Notes under the pieces: generated by a model
Seen by the model: only the letters and a program-made list of their open reading frames with translations
Databases searched by the model: none
What the model was told of the DNA's origin: nothing
Origin: a virus
Virus record (IMG/VR): IMGVR_UViG_3300003690_000335
Coordinates: 1-20,177 of that record
Length of the DNA: 20,177 bases
Reading direction: 5' to 3' (one strand)
Position numbers and translations under genes: made by a program
Shown here: positions 6,309 through 14,586 of the stretch, piece by piece
Numbering within the stretch: the stretch's first letter is position 1
How the letters are laid out: every line of letters begins with the position of its first letter

Positions 6309-6603
6309 AAATGCTTGTGTCCGGTAGCTTGATAAACAAATCCATATCAACGTCAAGAACTAGTATTTCGCACCGCATGTGCGTGTCAACAGGTTCACCC
6401 TGCGCATGCTCATGCTGCATACTAAACATTATAGGATAATTAAAATCTTGGTCTGGGTCAGCTTTAGGAACAGTTTTATTGATAAACTCATCCGTTCCCT
6501 GCCGATTATAGTTGCGGTCCCGTGCAATTTTTGCTGCTTTCAATAGCAGCGGGTACGGAAAAAACTTGCGGTTTTGGTCTGCAATATTTTCTTCTTCAGA
6601 CAT
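6274..6603 (-). CDS. Hypothetical protein (109 aa)
   Basis: ATG at 6603 (MSEEENIADQNRKFFPYPLL) chosen because GGAGG lies 5 nt upstream; the ATG at 6615 is inside the leader. The protein is acidic, with sequences such as IARDRNYNRQGTDEFINKTV and DVDMDLFIKLPDTSIYDQET. It follows a strong terminator (6617-6655), so it needs its own promoter. A TATACT box in the terminator loop, with CTGTTT 17 nt upstream, is the only candidate seen. Not recognised. Confidence 0.7.
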   Translation of the reverse strand: MSEEENIADQNRKFFPYPLLLKAAKIARDRNYNRQGTDEFINKTVPKADPDQDFNYPIMFSMQHEHAQGEPVDTHMRCEILVLDVDMDLFIKLPDTSIYDQETGHLPSA

Positions 6604-6616
6604 TAATACCTCCATT

Positions 6617-6655
6617 AAGAAAAAACCCCTGGTGCCATTAGTATAGCACCAGGGG
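6617..6655 (-). terminator. Canonical Rho-independent terminator
   Basis: A perfect 10-bp stem (6626-6635 with 6646-6655) closes a 10-nt loop and is followed on the minus strand by TTTTTTCTT. It ends the transcript of the gene at 6683-7138. The loop reads TATACTAATG on the minus strand and could double as a -10 box (CTGTTT at 6663-6668, 17 nt upstream). Confidence 0.9.
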
Positions 6656-6682
6656 TATGAGAAAACAGGCCATCATTTGTCA

Positions 6683-7138
6683 TTAGACAAGTTCGATGAG
6701 TTCGATGTACCCTTTTTTCACGGCTTCTTGTAAATCACCGTGGCCTCCCACGAGAGGCTTGCCGTTATTACCACGCTTATCGGTGGTTTTCAAGGCAACC
6801 ATAAAGTCCCCAACGGTCATGCCGTCTTCAAATAGGGACCAAATTGCCGCTCGGTTAGTGCCTTCCCTCACAGGGTTTGGTCCACCCGTGAACTTAATAG
6901 TATGTCCACTAGGATAAACCGCGCTTTTCCGCTCGCGCGGCTGTGGCGGAGGCGCTGCTCGTATAGGGGAAATATTACTGACGGCTTCCGTGGTCTTGGT
7001 TACCGCGTTCAGTGCTTCCTCCCTACCGTTTTTGGATTCGCCGTTAGAAGCAGGTTTCTTTTTCGTGGCCCCAGAGGGCTTTGAATTTTTTGCCTTCTTC
7101 TTAACGGGTACATCCGTAATAGAAGCAACATTTGACAT
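6683..7138 (-). CDS. Lys-rich protein with C-terminal helical domain (151 aa)
   Basis: ATG at 7138 with AAGGGAG 8 nt upstream. Residues 1-80 are low-complexity and basic (VKKKAKNSKPSGATKKKPAS, PPPQPRERKSAV), probably disordered and nucleic-acid binding. Residues about 92-149 hold a compact domain: TNRAAIWSLFEDGMTVGDFM, then HGDLQEAVKKGYIELI. The same pattern (R-x-x-IW...GxTVxxFxxA...D+xxAxxxGYI) ends the 200-aa protein at 13984-14586, so the two share a domain resembling a winged helix. The genome-specific role is unknown. The gene lies between promoter copy 7 and a strong terminator, so it is monocistronic. Confidence 0.75.
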   Translation of the reverse strand: MSNVASITDVPVKKKAKNSKPSGATKKKPASNGESKNGREEALNAVTKTTEAVSNISPIRAAPPPQPRERKSAVYPSGHTIKFTGGPNPVREGTNRAAIWSLFEDGMTVGDFMVALKTTDKRGNNGKPLVGGHGDLQEAVKKGYIELIELV

Positions 7139-7655: not shown

Positions 7656-9605
7656 CTACCCAACACCTCCCACCAAGTTTTCATTTGTCAATTGAACACT
7701 ATGATTATGACCAAGTCCACGGGTAAGGGGTTTTTCACTGAATGTTGTCTTTGCATCCCCCCAGCTTGGTCCATATTCAGCATCAACCTTGTTAGGAACC
7801 GATAATAAAGTACATTGCTCCATGATTTCAGTAACTATGTCTGCTTGTTGCTGTGATTCAACTGATATATCAAGCTCATCATGAACCTGGATATGCGGCA
7901 GTATCCCCTCTTTATACAGGGCAACCATTGCCATCTTCGTTTGGTCGGCGGCACTACCCTGAATAAGTCTATTTAATGCTTTGTATGTGAAAGCACGTTT
8001 AAGTCCCATGTGCTTGCCGTACTCTTTCATGGCTTGATCAAACGGCATCGGTTTGTGATAGCCAGTTGCGTCTGGCTCCCACATCGTGAACCGGCACCGA
8101 CGCCCACCAATAGTTTTGATAAACCCAACTTCTGCAGCCCTTTGAGCACAGTAGTTGGCAAGTTGACGAACAAAAGGTACCTGACTATGGTACTTGTTGA
8201 AAAGGGCCTCGCTTTCTTCCCATGATAAACCCAACTGTTCTGATAATTTCTTTTTCCCCATGCCGTAGAACAACCCAAGATTTATCAGCTTGGCATGGGT
8301 GCGCGGAATATTAGCCATGTCCGCTACAACTTGGTGGAAATCAGCCTCATCATTTTTATATAAATCTACAACGGGGTCAACCGACGTATAGTTCAGTTTT
8401 GAAGCGTAATGAACCACCAAACGGGGTTCTTGTTGACTATAATCAAATGATCCCCAGACACAATTATCTTCAGGTATGAACAATGAACGAATTAATGGCC
8501 CAATTTCCTTATTGCGCGCGGGAACCTGTTGTAAATTCGGGTTGCTGTAGCTCATGCGTCCCGTTAACGTCCCCCCACGTTCCGATCTTAGCTGGTGTAC
8601 CTCTGCATGTATACGGCCCTTGGTCTGGTGCTCCAATAAAGTATCAATAAAGGTCGTATGAGCCTTGTTTATCTCTCGTGCTTCCAAAATCATACGCGCA
8701 AGCGGGTGTTCATTCTCCCATAAGCTCGCCTTATCAAATTTAGGCTGGTTAGATTTGGGTGTTCGCTCGTAATGCAGCCCCGCGGCATCAAATGCTTTGG
8801 CCACACTCGCAGCGGCCCATATTTCTACAGCCACACCATAATCTTTTTCAATTTGTTTGATGATTTTTGCTTCGCGACGACTTAAATCACGCTTGAGTTT
8901 TTCCGCTTTGTCCAAGTCAACACGCACACCCTTTTCCCGCATGTCGATTAAACAGGGCAACACATCCATTTCAAGATTGAAAATGTCTGTAAGGTTATCT
9001 TGCGCCAGTAAATTTTGAAAATGTTTCCACAAACGCAGGGTTAATCGTGCATCTTGCTCCGCATAAGGGCCGACGTACTGGGGCGGTAGACGCCACATAT
9101 CTGATTTGGAGTTAACCCCCCACTCCTTTGCAGCCTCTTCCAGTAATGTTTCATCCTTGCGCTCCTGCAAATATGTTTTTCCAAGCGCGTTCAAGGCATA
9201 ACTCATGCGGTTTTCGTCTATTAAGGGCGCTGCAATCATTGTGTCAATAATAAGGCCGTTGATTTCACGTATGCCGCTGGCTCGCAGCCACCCTATATCG
9301 TACTGAGCATTGTGAAATATCTTATCTGACGGCGCTTGCATCTGCTTTTTCAGCCAGCGCCACACGACGGCTTCATCTAAATTGCCACCGGCCTCATGTT
9401 TGATAGGAAAATAATAGGCGTTTTCATCTGCAGCGACGGCTATGCCAATTACATAGCCATCTTTACGAGGCCAGCCGCTGCCGCGTATTTTCAAATTTGG
9501 GTCATATGTTTCTAAATCAACTGAAATCTGCTTAAATTGTGATAAATCTGGAAATTCTGAAGGGGGTACCCATTCGCTTTTAGGTTGAAACAGTGGTATC
9601 TGCAT
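7656..9605 (-). CDS. polA: Family A DNA polymerase with 3'-5' exonuclease
   Basis: 649 aa, phage-sized, with no 5'-3' exonuclease domain. The exonuclease domain carries D30 and E32 (SVDLETYDP), N99/D103 (FHNAQYDIGWL) and D185 (YAEQDARL). Polymerase motif A is D388 (SFDYSQQEPRL), motif B RTHAKLINLGLFYGMG (435-450; K439, Y447) and motif C VHDEL (H575 D576 E577). All catalytic residues are present, so both activities should be intact. The residue equivalent to E. coli F762 is L443; Leu here is a known viral variant linked to slower, more accurate synthesis. It replicates the phage genome together with the primase, helicase and ssDNA-binding protein upstream. The start overlaps the preceding gene by 26 nt; its SD is weak (AAGAGAA), implying coupling. 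Confidence 0.97.
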   Translation of the reverse strand: MQIPLFQPKSEWVPPSEFPDLSQFKQISVDLETYDPNLKIRGSGWPRKDGYVIGIAVAADENAYYFPIKHEAGGNLDEAVVWRWLKKQMQAPSDKIFHNAQYDIGWLRASGIREINGLIIDTMIAAPLIDENRMSYALNALGKTYLQERKDETLLEEAAKEWGVNSKSDMWRLPPQYVGPYAEQDARLTLRLWKHFQNLLAQDNLTDIFNLEMDVLPCLIDMREKGVRVDLDKAEKLKRDLSRREAKIIKQIEKDYGVAVEIWAAASVAKAFDAAGLHYERTPKSNQPKFDKASLWENEHPLARMILEAREINKAHTTFIDTLLEHQTKGRIHAEVHQLRSERGGTLTGRMSYSNPNLQQVPARNKEIGPLIRSLFIPEDNCVWGSFDYSQQEPRLVVHYASKLNYTSVDPVVDLYKNDEADFHQVVADMANIPRTHAKLINLGLFYGMGKKKLSEQLGLSWEESEALFNKYHSQVPFVRQLANYCAQRAAEVGFIKTIGGRRCRFTMWEPDATGYHKPMPFDQAMKEYGKHMGLKRAFTYKALNRLIQGSAADQTKMAMVALYKEGILPHIQVHDELDISVESQQQADIVTEIMEQCTLLSVPNKVDAEYGPSWGDAKTTFSEKPLTRGLGHNHSVQLTNENLVGGVG

Positions 9606-9930
9606 CTGGCTTTTCTCTTACATAAATATAATCAGGTTGTATGTGCCCTAATCGTACCATTTCTGCTTCAACCAGTAAAAGATATCTTCGCAAATCCCGT
9701 ATATCGTCAATTACACCTGTTTCTTCTGGGTGTTCTTCAATAGTGCGGAATATGTCGTAAGAATATTTTTGCGCGAGGTTTTCAATGCGGTCCCATTTAC
9801 GGGCCAGCATCATGAAAGCCCCTAATCCACCACGCTTTTTCCAACTATTGCCATAGGTTTTTTCCGCTTCGCATAAGGAAGGGTGGTCATTAAGGCACAG
9901 GTCCTGCACAATTTCTAGAATACTACGCAT
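9580..9930 (-). CDS. YGxSW helical phage protein, possibly Nmad1/DUF1599-like (116 aa)
   Basis: ATG at 9930 with AAAGGAGG about 6 nt upstream, overlapping the TS-like stop by 8 nt. The signature is KTYGNSWKKRGGLGAFMMLA, RKWDRIENLA, then GVIDDIRDLRRYLLLVEAEM. 'YG.SW...GG...F...K.DR', followed by 'D.I.DL..YL', resembles the all-helical 'nucleotide modification associated domain 1' (DUF1599) described near DNA-modification genes. The family call is from memory. Its place between the TS-like gene and polymerase supports a nucleotide-metabolism role. A MazG-like fold is an alternative. Confidence 0.7.
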   Translation of the reverse strand: MRSILEIVQDLCLNDHPSLCEAEKTYGNSWKKRGGLGAFMMLARKWDRIENLAQKYSYDIFRTIEEHPEETGVIDDIRDLRRYLLLVEAEMVRLGHIQPDYIYVREKPDADTTVST

Positions 9931-10918
9931 TTGGCTTCCTCCTTTCTAACCATATGGTGCAAGCCTGTTGCCAGTCTTGGATAGGCATTTGCGACTTAAC
10001 CGTATCAAAGGCGGCTTGCCATTGTCCATTTTTCCAATGGTCCCAGGCTTTGGTCATGGGTTCAATTAATTCTTTATAAAAGGATGACTTATAAAACATA
10101 GCGTCACCAAAATCAAGGTCACGGGGTATTTTGAACCTTGTGTGGGTAAAATCATCATAAGGTTCCCGGCTTCGGTACGGCAACCCTTCCTCAGGTATGC
10201 GGTATGCGTCAAATATATCTCTGTAGGCGTGGAAACTGTCACTTATTTGGATATACGGCCCCATTTCAATATCAAGGCAATCGGCAATGTACTGTTGCAG
10301 CATACTGAACTGCACCGCATTGGCTCCATAGGCCCCCCAGATAATGTCGTTACTGCGACAGCATACGGTCATGTGTAATTTATTCAAGTACCCTGACCTA
10401 TCGTCGCCACCCAGTTCATCACGTATTTTGAAATATATATGCGTGTTGCAGGGGATATCAACCTTGTTGACATTTAAGTCGTGCGGGGCATCCCACATTT
10501 GTAGAACACAACGGCGGTCATCAGGGTCTCTTCCCAAGCGGCGAATAATTATCTTAACCTGATCGAGCACCCTGTAGTCTTGCGTGAAATGCTTACGCCA
10601 CCGATAGCCATATGCTCCATGGAATATTTCACCGTCATCACTGTAATCATCCATGCGCTTGTTGTAGTGAACCAAGGGTTTCACATCCCTTTGGCCGCGC
10701 AGCATCCACAGGCTTTCCATTAAATGAAAAAACGGGTTGGCATCACGCACAGGGTTGAATAGCACACGCTCCCAAGGCTTTTCGTAAACTGTCGCCACGC
10801 AGGTAGGGTGTTCTAAAACGGTACCTGCGCGTGACTTGCGTTCAACGCCTTCTTCATACAGAAGTTTCATCCCGCCTACAAAGGCGTCACTTACATTCCG
10901 GGCATGTATAGTGTGCAT
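9923..10918 (-). CDS. Thymidylate synthase / dUMP hydroxymethylase homologue
   Basis: 331 aa from the ATG at 10918, chosen for GGAGGAAAC directly upstream; 25 extra in-frame codons at 5' overlap the upstream gene. TS landmarks are visible: E68 and W71 (MESLWML), YGYRWR (103-108), RR at 135-136 (phosphate), catalytic C157 (DIPCNTHIYF), RSND at 188-191, N200 in GAYGANAVQFS, and H230/Y232 (DSFHAY). The family adds a one-carbon unit to C5 of dUMP using methylene-tetrahydrofolate. Some phage members transfer hydroxymethyl to make 5-hmdUMP. The long insert in the N200 loop and the neighbouring thymine-modification genes favour hydroxymethylase (inference); thymidylate synthase is the alternative. 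The RBS is complementary to the small RNA at 7249-7349. Confidence 0.9.
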   Translation of the reverse strand: MHTIHARNVSDAFVGGMKLLYEEGVERKSRAGTVLEHPTCVATVYEKPWERVLFNPVRDANPFFHLMESLWMLRGQRDVKPLVHYNKRMDDYSDDGEIFHGAYGYRWRKHFTQDYRVLDQVKIIIRRLGRDPDDRRCVLQMWDAPHDLNVNKVDIPCNTHIYFKIRDELGGDDRSGYLNKLHMTVCCRSNDIIWGAYGANAVQFSMLQQYIADCLDIEMGPYIQISDSFHAYRDIFDAYRIPEEGLPYRSREPYDDFTHTRFKIPRDLDFGDAMFYKSSFYKELIEPMTKAWDHWKNGQWQAAFDTVKSQMPIQDWQQACTIWLERRKPNA

Positions 10919-10977
10919 GTTTCCTCCAATTAGGCACCTACCCCTACTGTACTTGTTTCTTGCCCCTTCAGGGGGCC

Positions 10978-11976
10978 TTACAGGGCCTCCCAAGGGCGTT
11001 TTATTACCTTGGTATAAGGCCCCAAAGCCAAAGCACGAGCAACCGCTTTTTTATCGTTGTTGGTTACGGCAGGCCAGATCTTTTGGCCTTTGTGGTCGGG
11101 CAATAATCCAGGGCGATATGTTAAGGCATCGCAGCCTGCACATGGACCAAATTCTCTGTCTCCTTCGTACAACATTGCTCGCATGGCATTGAATTCTTCA
11201 GCCTGCCAGATTGTATTCAAAGGCGTGTCGAAAGCATTGCCTATTCTGTAGTAGCCGCGCCAGTCATTACAGCATCCAGCAACGTTACCATCCCAACGTA
11301 TGCTCATTTCCCTGAAGGGCTTTCCACACCGTCGGCCAACGGCTTTGTCATTAGGCGGGAAGGCGGAGCCGCAATGGTTATTCAAACTGGCATGGTTACC
11401 GGACGTAGCATTTGATATATCGTCCACTACAACAATGTCATGGTCGGTTGGTTTGCGTCGCCTGTGCGGATTAGCCGACTTAACCAAGGGGTAATCGTAA
11501 ATAGGATGCGGCCCTTTGTAGAGCAACTTTACCTTTGGAACAATGTTCACAGCTTCATAGTTGTCTAAAAGCAATACGTTCAAACCTGCCTGCATCAGCG
11601 TGTTAATTTTATCAGTGGTATCGCCCCCTAGTAATCCACCGCCATTACTGGTCATCATTAGGTGAGTCGTGGGTAGGTATTCACGCAACACGCGCACTAT
11701 TTCCACATGGTCAGGATTCATGGTTGGTTCACCATGCATTGCCATTTCTATACGAGGATTCCATTTACGGCCTTCTGTGTGGGCCTCTTGTAAACTTGTG
11801 GCAAACCATGCAGCGTTCTCAACCGTCATGAACTTATACGGCTTGCTGCTCTTGCCTGTTGTATTGCTTGGTCCATGCGCCCCATTGTCACGTATGCCCT
11901 GAATACCGCAAAATGAGCAAGCTAGATTGCAGCCTTCGGTTAGTTCAAATTGGATACAGAACGGTGGTTCCTGCAT
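10978..11976 (-). CDS. Radical SAM enzyme with SPASM-like C-terminal cysteines
   Basis: 332 aa. CNLACSFC (C16, C20, C23) is the radical-SAM CxxxCxxC that holds the SAM-binding [4Fe-4S] cluster. HGEPTMNPDHVEI (about 88-100) is the glycine-rich 'GGEP'-type SAM motif. The C-terminal half has more cysteines (RRCGKPFREMSIRWDGNVAG then CCNDW; GPCAGCD), as in SPASM-type auxiliary clusters. It starts at TAATG, overlapping the glycosyltransferase stop, so translation is coupled. Radical-SAM proteins accompany thymine hypermodification genes in several phages, where they remodel the side chain on C5 of thymine. Here the substrate is unknown; modified DNA or a nucleotide is the natural guess from context. 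Confidence 0.9.
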   Translation of the reverse strand: MQEPPFCIQFELTEGCNLACSFCGIQGIRDNGAHGPSNTTGKSSKPYKFMTVENAAWFATSLQEAHTEGRKWNPRIEMAMHGEPTMNPDHVEIVRVLREYLPTTHLMMTSNGGGLLGGDTTDKINTLMQAGLNVLLLDNYEAVNIVPKVKLLYKGPHPIYDYPLVKSANPHRRRKPTDHDIVVVDDISNATSGNHASLNNHCGSAFPPNDKAVGRRCGKPFREMSIRWDGNVAGCCNDWRGYYRIGNAFDTPLNTIWQAEEFNAMRAMLYEGDREFGPCAGCDALTYRPGLLPDHKGQKIWPAVTNNDKKAVARALALGPYTKVIKRPWEAL

Positions 11977-12947
11977 TAGTCAGCCGCTTTCAAAAAGTTT
12001 TCCCACGCAACTATGGTTTGGTCATCCAGGTCAGTTAGGTAGTCGTGTTTAAAAAGCTCTCGCTGTTCACGGGCAATTTGCTCATATGTAGGGAGAGCCT
12101 CCAGCACATCTTCGGCAGAATTTACCACAGGAAATAAATAATCGCCCTTACCAGGAAAAGCTGTTTTCATTGTGTTGCTCGTACTTTCATCAAAAAACAT
12201 GGCTACCCCCGCCGATAAACATTCATAAAAACGATTGGCGGGTGAATTGTAATGCGTGTGGATATGCTCGTCTTCAATATAAACAGTAGCTGCAAACTTA
12301 GACAAGTCCTGTATAGACTTCCAGCTACCATGCCGAGTCATATTTGGAGCAAGCGCCTTGAATTTTTCAATGGCTTTCCCATTGGTAGATATATGCACGG
12401 GATACGGCGCGTCTTCAAAGTACTTTTTGAAATAGGGTTCCCTATCTTTCCTATAGGCCCCATAGTACATCAAGCCCTGAACCTTGTTCTTAAAGTCAAT
12501 TTCTTCAAGTGGTAAAGGATCCCATGTTAAAAGGTTCCAGTTAACATAAGCATTTCCAGGACCAGTGGCATTTTCAGGAATATTACTCCATATGAAAGGA
12601 GGAGCAGTATCAAAAGGCTGCTTAAAAGACCAACCACGTTCATCACGCAATACTTTCTGTACTTGACTAATGGGCTGCACAGTATAGTCGTTTTGAACAT
12701 AAATTAAATTCTTGCACCTGCGGATTTGATCAGCCAGTTCCACACGCAATTCAGCCTCAGCAAAAGCTCCCATACTGTTGACGTACAAAATTGTGTCATA
12801 AGTGTGGCGTAAAAAAGGCCGACCCCGCTGTATGCCGTCAACTAAATCTGCATTTAAATGGTTGGCAAGATACTGTGCAACTCGCGCGCTGGCTATGCTA
12901 GTCTTGGGACTGCAATAGGTCAGGTGTACTACGCAAATGTTCCTCAT
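11976..12947 (-). CDS. Glycosyltransferase-like protein (GT-B type)
   Basis: 323 aa from the ATG at 12947 (MRNICVVHLTYCSPKTSIAS), chosen because AAAGGAG lies 7 nt upstream; the open frame to 13040 is non-genic. The N-terminal Rossmann-like half has NLIYVQNDYTVQPI. The C-terminal half has GLMYYGAYRKDREPYFKKYF and YNSPANRFYECLSAGVAMFF, the 'NR..E.L..G' nucleotide-sugar-binding pattern of GT-B enzymes. In this context it could glycosylate hydroxymethyl-uracil DNA, as the T4 alpha/beta glucosyltransferases do for hydroxymethyl-cytosine. Donor and acceptor cannot be read from sequence. It overlaps the upstream gene by 50 nt and is followed by the radical-SAM gene. Confidence 0.8.
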   Translation of the reverse strand: MRNICVVHLTYCSPKTSIASARVAQYLANHLNADLVDGIQRGRPFLRHTYDTILYVNSMGAFAEAELRVELADQIRRCKNLIYVQNDYTVQPISQVQKVLRDERGWSFKQPFDTAPPFIWSNIPENATGPGNAYVNWNLLTWDPLPLEEIDFKNKVQGLMYYGAYRKDREPYFKKYFEDAPYPVHISTNGKAIEKFKALAPNMTRHGSWKSIQDLSKFAATVYIEDEHIHTHYNSPANRFYECLSAGVAMFFDESTSNTMKTAFPGKGDYLFPVVNSAEDVLEALPTYEQIAREQRELFKHDYLTDLDDQTIVAWENFLKAAD

Positions 12948-13893
12948 TAGTTTTCTCCTTTCTACGAGCACGATACCGCGCCCACTTGGAACGTTCTTGC
13001 CCTGGCGGTTGATAAATGCTGCGCGGCTTTCCCTCACCATTTGTTACGCGCTGGTATTTATCAAACTCACATAGGCAATGTTCTATCTCTCTCATTTCTA
13101 ATGTAGGTACAAACGATTCTTTTTCCTCGTTTGCTATCTTCAATAGGAGCATCATTTCCCTGTTCCAATTATGCATTCTAGAGGAAAATTTCAATGGCCG
13201 ACCAAAGACCCTGTTAAGACCGCGCTTGGCTCCAGGACCAGCATTCGCCCATGTGTTAATATCTGTCGCATTTTCCAATACAGGTGTATGGCGCAAGTCA
13301 CTTACAAGTTCATAGGCCATGAACCCACCACCGCCCCAGCCTTTAAGTTTTCCCAGGTTTTGATGCATGTGTTGTATATTTCCCTTGCTTGCAATATCAG
13401 ACAATAGCTGCCTGTAATCCCAAATAGCAAACAAGAATTCATCTACAACAATATTTTCTTTAGGGTCTTTTTTACCCTGATTTGTGATGATATAGGCTCC
13501 CGTGAACACCTTTTTCTTATTGTCCAAACGCTCACGGGCGGTACGCTTAAGATGTTCAGGGTTGTGGGTTTCTTGCCAGCCGCCAATAGCTTCGCACATT
13601 TCCATGGTGCCGAACATACGAAACACGGCGCAGTTATAAATCATCAAAGCATGGGGTTTGTTGGCATTTGGATTGGTTAGGTGTTCACGCATCCAAACCG
13701 TGGTTTTATCAAGCTCGCGAAACACATTCGTAAACTTGTACTTTTGTAAAATTTCATCCTCGGTCCAAGGCCACTTGAGCCCTTCTTCTTTTCTAAGATA
13801 AATATGATGACGTTTATTTATCCAATCTACAAAATTCCTGCCCAATGGCAAATTACCAATGAACGGTTGGTCTAAAAAAGTATTGATCGACAA
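12898..13893 (-). CDS. alpha-Glutamyl/putrescinyl-thymine pyrophosphorylase-like (5-hmdU kinase helical-domain) protein
   Basis: 331 aa from a TTG at 13893 with AAAGGAG 6 nt upstream. LKWPWTEDEILQKYKFTNVF then RELDKTTVWMREHL is the signature I associate with the all-helical domain of thymine-modifying phage enzymes (aG/PT-PPlase, also fused to 5-hmdU kinases). Further support: GWGGGGFMAYELVSDLRHTP, INTWANAGPGAKRGLNRVFG and MREIEHCLCEFDKYQRV. There is no P-loop, so it is not itself a kinase. Known members displace pyrophosphate from 5-(PPO-methyl)uracil in DNA and attach amino acids or amines. The gene starts the run of modification genes; family assignment is by motif recall. Confidence 0.8.
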   Translation of the reverse strand: MSINTFLDQPFIGNLPLGRNFVDWINKRHHIYLRKEEGLKWPWTEDEILQKYKFTNVFRELDKTTVWMREHLTNPNANKPHALMIYNCAVFRMFGTMEMCEAIGGWQETHNPEHLKRTARERLDNKKKVFTGAYIITNQGKKDPKENIVVDEFLFAIWDYRQLLSDIASKGNIQHMHQNLGKLKGWGGGGFMAYELVSDLRHTPVLENATDINTWANAGPGAKRGLNRVFGRPLKFSSRMHNWNREMMLLLKIANEEKESFVPTLEMREIEHCLCEFDKYQRVTNGEGKPRSIYQPPGQERSKWARYRARRKEKTNEEHLRSTPDLLQSQD

Positions 13894-13983: not shown

Positions 13984-14586
13984 TTATTTGCTTGACTCAG
14001 TAGCTTTATAAACTTTGATGTACCCCGCTTTTTCGGCAAGCTGAATATCCTTCGCGCTGCCTGGAAGACCGGCTTCCCTGATAGCTGCTATGAATTCAGC
14101 TACCGTGATGCCCTTTTGAATATAAGACCAGATCTTATATTTTGTGGTTCCTGGGCGAATTGGGATCTTATTACTAATTATTTCAATTCGATCCTCACGG
14201 CCATATAATCTGGGCCGCTTAATTCCGGTTTTTGATAACTTAACTGTTACCTCTTCCCGTACTTCATTTAAATCTGTGATAGTAGACATTGCACCCTTCC
14301 TATAAGGTTTCGCCTTGGTTAAAATAGTCTCCCAAACAACCCTAGCTAAATCATCTTTGTAAATTGTTTGGGAAGACTTGTACTTTACCACTTTAGGGAA
14401 AGAGAGCAAACAGTGAATTCCAATAAGCTCATCTTCATCATATGCGCTTTTTACATCACCAGCTTCACATAGTACTGGAGTAAATTTATCTATAAAACCA
14501 GACGATTTTGCTTCGCCAACACTTTTAAATTTCATGGCGTAAGAGGCGTCCTTTTTATAATCATCAACCACCGCGTAGCAAATCAT
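13984..14586 (-). CDS. Two-part protein with C-terminal domain shared with the 151-aa protein (200 aa)
   Basis: ATG at 14586 with AAAGGAG upstream. Residues 1-99 (MICYAVVDDYKKDASYAMKF, IGIHCLLSFPKVVKYKSSQT) form one domain of unknown fold. From residue 100 (MSTITDLNEVREEVTVKLSK) a basic linker leads to the terminal domain RPGTTKYKIWSYIQKGITVA then EFIAAIREAGLPGSAKDIQL, and GYIKV. That domain matches the end of the protein at 6683-7138. An in-frame ATG at 14289 (residue 100) has AGGAAGGG close upstream, so the C-terminal part may also be made alone. A DNA-binding role is possible. A terminator/promoter overlap lies directly upstream. Confidence 0.75.
   Translation of the reverse strand: MICYAVVDDYKKDASYAMKFKSVGEAKSSGFIDKFTPVLCEAGDVKSAYDEDELIGIHCLLSFPKVVKYKSSQTIYKDDLARVVWETILTKAKPYRKGAMSTITDLNEVREEVTVKLSKTGIKRPRLYGREDRIEIISNKIPIRPGTTKYKIWSYIQKGITVAEFIAAIREAGLPGSAKDIQLAEKAGYIKVYKATESSK

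Follow-up and report, generated by a model that had tools for sequence, protein, structure and literature searches.

What kind of base does a phage make when its DNA-modification genes include both a glycosyltransferase (GT) and a radical S-adenosylmethionine enzyme (rSAM)? This question is raised by the window, the 20,177 bases analysed here, which are bases 1-20177 of the 23,175-base viral record IMGVR_UViG_3300003690_000335 in IMG/VR. An initial annotation had described there one overlapping run of modification genes. The run is tight, lies on the minus strand and comprises a protein of the HMUDK_hel family (PF18723, here called HEL), a GT-B glycosyltransferase, an rSAM with a SPASM domain, a homologue of thymidylate synthase (TS), a 116-aa protein and a family A DNA polymerase (PolA), all of which were found. 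That it is a thymine-hypermodification cassette founded on 5-hydroxymethyldeoxyuridine (hmdU) is well supported. The annotation had left open whether the usual 5-hmdU kinase lies elsewhere or whether hmdU is glycosylated directly and then remodelled by radical chemistry. The second is now clearly favoured by the fold of the GT, the GT company of the rSAM and the absence of the kinase. Thymine in this phage is probably replaced by 5-hydroxymethyluracil (hmU) that is glycosylated and then radically remodelled.

The hydroxymethylated base can be attributed to the TS homologue, which is of the dUMP-hydroxymethylase type. The protein is 44% identical to gp17 of phage YuA, itself annotated as a putative deoxyuridylate hydroxymethyltransferase. 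The catalytic Cys is kept, and an Asn aligns with the Asn of ThyA at the position where T4 dCMP hydroxymethylase has Asp. With the Cys and the uracil-type Asn both kept, the substrate is best read as uracil and the product, accordingly, as hmdUMP. For phages M6, ViI and phiW-14, 5hmdU is regarded as an intermediate that all three share (PMC6449724). PolA is syntenic with the cassette and has the same position in YuA and in Sonora. It is probably a replicase that uses hmdUTP.

The GT gives only a weak match in Pfam (PF13524, E 0.005). It does not match the described Pfam family of T4 beta-glucosyltransferase (BGT), and no relative in the Protein Data Bank (PDB) was found by plain sequence search. 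The structure model nevertheless confirms the GT-B call. When the AF2 model (pLDDT 77, pTM 0.79) is compared with PDB chains in Foldseek, T4 BGT comes first (1nzd, a D100A mutant by its title, E 1e-7). BGT is also at the top in VIA (Z 19.3, rmsd 3.6, 290/323 residues aligned). It is followed by T4 AGT (Z 17.9, with an AGT complex that holds hmU-containing DNA among the matches), and other GT-B enzymes reach 15.8 at most. An hhalign comparison with BGT (E 1e-4, C-terminal half) places R166, R239 and E242, which are invariant across the family, on BGT R191, R269 and E272, residues that bind the UDP-sugar. R169 probably matches BGT R195. We propose, on the strength of the model, that the protein is an hmdU-DNA glycosyltransferase.

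Further evidence can be found in the relatives of the cassette. Here the GT family of the window is called GT1, and TAGT, GT2 and GT61 denote other families. When IMG/VR was scanned with the rSAM, 60 loci were obtained. In every one of the 36 loci read in which HEL and rSAM occur together, a GT lies within 1.6 kb (TAGT in 14, GT2 in 10, GT1 in 7, mixed or other in 5). The GT slot can be filled by the exchangeable families TAGT, GT2, GT1 and GT61, of which TAGT (PF20691, PHROG 842) is the commonest. The order of the genes also differs, being HEL-GT-rSAM-TS, rSAM-GT-HEL-TS or HEL-rSAM-GT-TS. Thus, common ancestry of a single arrangement is not the whole reason for the GT company.

A second scan was made with HEL only. 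Its best 80 loci, some of them near duplicates, were picked by closeness to the HEL of the window, and the numbers therefore describe the window's clade and not all HEL phages. A known GT family is present in 61 of them, 21 of these with an rSAM. Nine more have a GT4-like open reading frame (ORF) between HEL and TS (weak Pfam matches in two of three tested). One locus has a kinase and ADDT without a GT, nine have none of all these genes, and GT and kinase were together in none of the 80.

Genes of sugar metabolism also occur within the cassette. A cupin of the mannose-6-phosphate-isomerase type sits between HEL and the GT in four relatives, and three of the four cupins have an N-terminal nucleotidyltransferase domain (L013 and L014 by Pfam, L015 by eye). 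In Escherichia phage vB_EcoM_IME392, a PIG-L-type deacetylase adjoins the GT.

The target of the GT and the rSAM might instead be a host surface glycan, a virion protein or some small molecule, and their place next to the DNA-modification genes a matter of chance. Surface-glycan GTs are frequent in phages, and the Pfam match of this GT is generic as well as weak. We consider this the least probable of the explanations weighed here. In fold comparison BGT and AGT rank first for the GT, which has no membrane segment, and the neighbourhood is invariant through differing gene orders in dozens of phages. Moreover, the slot exchanges with TAGT, a DNA glycosyltransferase family of 5-hydroxymethylcytosine (hmC) phages, which in T6-like phages is considered likely to add the second glucose (PMC13390438).

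Other arrangements around HEL were seen as well. In the cultured E. coli phages IME392 (L087, 2841-9942) and EP_H11 (L123), a PIG-L deacetylase, a 344-aa protein, a GT1 homologue, HEL, a thymidylate-kinase-like gene and a TS homologue stand together, next to a BCCT/BetT choline-type transporter gene. These are candidate glucosaminyl-hmdU phages. Locus L072 (7863-14638) has HEL, an acyl-carrier-protein-like gene (PF00550), rSAM, GT61 and TAGT, then TS, which hints at an acyl and sugar decoration. In five loci (L185, L187, L189, L190 and L194), TS directly follows HEL, with a SAM-methyltransferase gene just upstream and neither GT nor kinase. These possibly represent a third kind of hmdU decoration. 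Among 50,697 phage records, the whole cassette was not found in cultured phages: the rSAM had only one match, at 24%, a divergent member of its family had two, at 22.6%, and GT2 had none.

The absence of the kinase can be followed well beyond the window. As the initial annotation stated, no P-loop 5-hmdU kinase (HMUDK) is present in the window, and none was found in the remaining 3 kb of the record, where the only Walker-A protein overall is a UvrD-like helicase. Kinase, ADDT, PALP and a YuA-type rSAM were not found near HEL in the window. The kinase family PF18748 is absent from the record itself, from 11 relatives and from 47 further rSAM records (about 60 in all). ADDT (PF18724) is absent from the record and the 11 relatives, with YuA and Sonora positive. 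The PF18748 controls YuA, Sonora, ViI, Bordetella CN1 and Rhizobium RHph_I65 scored over the cut-off, and AIIMS-Plu-RaNi was weak.

Three of the contigs without PF18748 have ends that are nearly identical, and are therefore close to complete. These are G010 (56.5 kb, 99 b overlapping at 98%), G012 (59.6 kb, 370 b at 96%) and G022 (72.6 kb, 273 b at 99%). Scanning 13 large contigs or fragments for Walker-A motifs revealed no small P-loop kinase, whether in G010 and G012 or in the lineage's other large contigs. A local HMM found a kinase in one of the best 80 HEL loci, and that locus has no GT. Among the cultured HEL phages tested, the kinase was found in all except IME392 and EP_H11. Two further contigs, G021 and G047 (L094-L101), are longer than one genome. 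Their ends align at 77-92% identity with an offset of 58-59.5 kb, as if two related phages had been joined in assembly.

These results bear on an amine pathway of the M6/YuA type, in which the kinase and transferase would lie beyond the fragment and the GT and rSAM would be extra decorations. Such a pathway would agree with the homology and synteny of HEL, TS and PolA with YuA and Sonora, and with a record of only 23 kb. It is nonetheless improbable, since the family search, the Walker-A scan and the local HMM all disfavour a kinase elsewhere, GT and kinase never occur together, and the rSAM has no detectable similarity to that of YuA (gp12).

The rSAM itself is identified by PF04055 (31.2 bits, over the cut-off of 29.5) and by the SPASM family PF13186 (49 bits). 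It has CX3CX2C at C16/C20/C23, and its auxiliary cysteines C217, C235, C279 and C282 are invariant across its family. Sequence comparison brought up a single PDB relative, BtrN, which matches in the SPASM region (E 1e-8). BtrN acts on an aminocyclitol. The rSAM family is also present in 8 records with Tet_JBP (PF12851), all without HEL, and TAGT-like GTs adjoin it in the TET clusters L076-L082. The rSAM keeps its GT company even where the genes that make the base are different, so its substrate is most simply read as a sugar. We propose that the enzyme tailors the DNA-bound sugar, as an optional step given that many GT cassettes lack it.

Alternately, hmdU may be glycosylated while the rSAM acts on the sugar nucleotide before transfer, on the base or its 5-methylene carbon, or on some other target. 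SPASM/twitch enzymes are chemically diverse, many families matched the rSAM (all far below cut-off), and the gene behaves as an add-on that many GT and HEL cassettes do without. This alternative is unlikely, though it deserves more weight than the other two. The rSAM stands beside GTs with both hmU (in company of TS and HEL) and TET-made bases, which fits a sugar better than a base, and the one PDB relative found for it is an aminocyclitol enzyme.

Members of the rSAM family can also be found in other surroundings. In L064, L066-L070 and L085, rSAM and TAGT lie beside a DNA polymerase III alpha gene, without HEL or TET, and a full-length TS homologue was not found there. In L068, an APS-kinase-like gene (PF01583) adjoins the rSAM. 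A second, photolyase-like radical-SAM family of 420-476 aa occurs in L064 (3851-5281) and L077 (7952-9226), with a weak match to YuA gp12 (20% over 212 aa, E 6e-4). A bacterial source of the rSAM was sought in one scan of genome contigs and was rejected: of its five loci, L113 and L114 are phage-like and the others weak. L113, from a contig binned as Patescibacteria, has a C5-cytosine methylase domain gene (6336-7031) between rSAM and GT1. L114, also in a Patescibacteria bin, matches the viral contig L072 protein for protein, so both are taken as phage contigs.

HEL is the protein that links the cassette to the kinase systems. Its assignment to HMUDK_hel stands (171.5 bits, against a curated PF18723 cut-off of 25), whereas the labels of pyrophosphorylase or kinase domain are less well supported. 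The AF2 model is confident (pLDDT 87.5), and no PDB relative was found by sequence. The best VIA match is 8z2n, the PaMx11 protein gp46 or PUGT (Z 11.5), the 5-phosphomethyl-dU glycinyltransferase. The queuine salvage enzyme DUF2419 and DNA glycosylases come next (Z 10-6), and unrelated proteins reach 3.8 at most. By Foldseek alone the match is weak (E 0.35), and a Z below 13 in helical models may reflect a common arrangement. Judged from the model, HEL is likely to be a separate DNA-glycosylase-like helical fold, nearest to PUGT, and therefore probably a reader or flipper of hmdU. It likely serves both kinase- and GT-based systems, with either enzyme as its partner. If so, its name in Pfam, "kinase helical domain", would be misleading, and in the window's clade HEL is mostly found without a kinase.

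In the route outlined here, we infer every reaction, which sugar is added and that virions carry the modified base. With strong support from homology, the TS homologue would make 5-hmdUMP, and PolA would incorporate hmdU. HEL may then recognise or flip hmdU in the DNA and hand it to a partner, as its fold and conserved company suggest. In place of the P-loop kinase of M6, YuA and ViI, the BGT-like GT would use an NDP-sugar as donor and attach its sugar to the oxygen of the 5-hydroxymethyl group in DNA, a step with good indirect support. The SPASM/twitch rSAM might finally oxidise, epimerise or dehydrate the attached sugar, by analogy with BtrN-type action on aminocyclitols. The outcome would be a thymine analogue that carries a sugar and protects the phage DNA against nucleases. 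More tentatively, and as something we hold to be possible rather than probable, the clade would contain a new glyco-thymine, with a keto-, epi- or deoxy-sugar on hmdU rewritten by the rSAM while bound to DNA, and glycosylated hmU, an analogue of base J in bacterial viruses, would be widespread in uncultivated phages.

Several points weigh against the glycosylated and remodelled base. The rSAM is missing within the stretch read in 40 of the 61 GT-containing HEL loci, and only gene company and a local SPASM match speak to its substrate. The GT model is of medium confidence, and its residues 89-116 are poorly modelled. D87 of the GT is invariant and follows the matching strand, but its probable match to D100, the catalytic base of BGT, was made only by eye. 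Finally, the record is a fragment.

The cassette can be compared with several known systems. The dUMP hydroxymethylase is shared with the YuA/M6, ViI and phiW-14 pathway. In YuA the genes run ADDT, PALP, rSAM, kinase PF18748, HEL, Nmad5, TS and PolA, and in YuA-type phages HEL and PolA are in matching order. Unlike these phages, the window has neither 5-HMUDK kinase nor ADDT, and has instead a GT and an unrelated SPASM radical-SAM enzyme. As in T4-type glucosylation of hmC, the base would be hydroxymethylated as a nucleotide and the DNA glycosylated afterwards; the GT model is nearest to BGT and AGT, and TAGT, known from T6, takes the same slot in relatives. The differences from T4 are a base that is hmU and not hmC, a GT outside the described Pfam families, and the additional HEL and radical-SAM enzyme. 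Since the kinase and transferase that define M6-type systems were not found, the cassette was not filed under M6-type systems; nor was the GT filed as a member of the T4 BGT family, as there is no sequence-family match. The cassette seems to work like a hybrid of the two.

The clusters of TET/JBP and TAGT for hmC share the radical-SAM family beside TAGT-like GTs, but there a TET dioxygenase hydroxylates the base in DNA. Neither HEL nor a TS homologue was found in their records L076-L082, and Tet_JBP is absent from the window's own record. At its core the cassette is predicted to yield hmU that carries a sugar in DNA, as does kinetoplastid base J (beta-D-glucosyl-hmU), which is made by a JBP hydroxylase and JGT without a radical-SAM step. 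Phage SP-15 also has a sugar-bearing thymine derivative, glucosylated dihydroxypentyluracil, and carbohydrate genes. In SP-15, however, the sugar is on a dihydroxypentyl chain, with phosphoglucuronate, and the gene set is another; this is the only sugar-bearing thymine of phages noted in the literature covered (PMC5977210). The cultured phages IME392 and EP_H11 likewise have a GT1 homologue (25%) in the company of HEL and a TS homologue, and lack PF18748, but a PIG-L deacetylase and a thymidylate-kinase-like gene replace the radical-SAM enzyme.

The layout of the run is given in the table below. The five ORFs of the initial annotation are all present on the minus strand, with two starts corrected from homology and ribosome-binding sites (RBS). 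The GT likely starts at the ATG at 12947 and not at 13040, since its relatives start there and a AGAAAGGAG site lies upstream; TS likely starts at 10918 and not at 10993. Transcription proceeds from HEL through GT, rSAM, TS and the 116-aa gene to PolA. HEL overlaps the GT gene over 50 nt, GT and rSAM have one base in common, and the 116-aa gene is overlapped by TS on one side and by PolA on the other. Against a relative of 84% identity, dN/dS is 0.04-0.06 for HEL, GT and rSAM, a sign of strong purifying selection, so that these genes can be considered real and constrained.

Genes of the modification cassette in the window.
Feature	Position	Strand	Evidence
HEL, HMUDK_hel (PF18723) protein, 331 aa, TTG start	12898..13893	-	Pfam E 3e-50; RBS present
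GT1, BGT-like GT-B glycosyltransferase, 323 aa	11976..12947	-	AF2 model, fold match, hhalign
Radical-SAM/SPASM (twitch-type) enzyme, 332 aa	10978..11976	-	PF04055 3e-7, PF13186 7e-13
TS homologue, dUMP-hydroxymethylase type, 331 aa	9923..10918	-	PF00303 7e-23, PHROG 5131 2e-98
116-aa conserved protein, YGxSWKxRGG motif	9580..9930	-	part of syntenic run
Family A DNA polymerase (PolA)	7656..9605	-	PF00476 3e-61, PHROG 17 4e-119

The 116-aa protein is kept between TS and PolA in 27 loci and has no convincing match in Pfam or PHROG. An assignment of this YGxSW protein to Nmad1 was not supported by Pfam in four homologues. Two other proteins of the window (13984-14586 and 6683-7138) have a common C-terminal domain of the type RxGTxRxxIWxxxxxGMTVxxF. 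The domain is also kept upstream of HEL in relatives, and has no match in Pfam or PHROG.

A route of glycosylation and radical chemistry has not yet been reported for cultured phages, although the TET and thymidine-pathway literature was covered only in part and an earlier mention of GT with rSAM is possible. From the cassette, one would expect thymines with a sugar to occur in many phages that have not been cultivated, and a radical enzyme to act on a DNA-bound sugar. It separates HEL from the kinase in its name, with a GT as its usual company in the window's clade. DNA glycosyltransferases and sugar-editing enzymes are useful for labelling DNA and in the study of phage escape from restriction and CRISPR.

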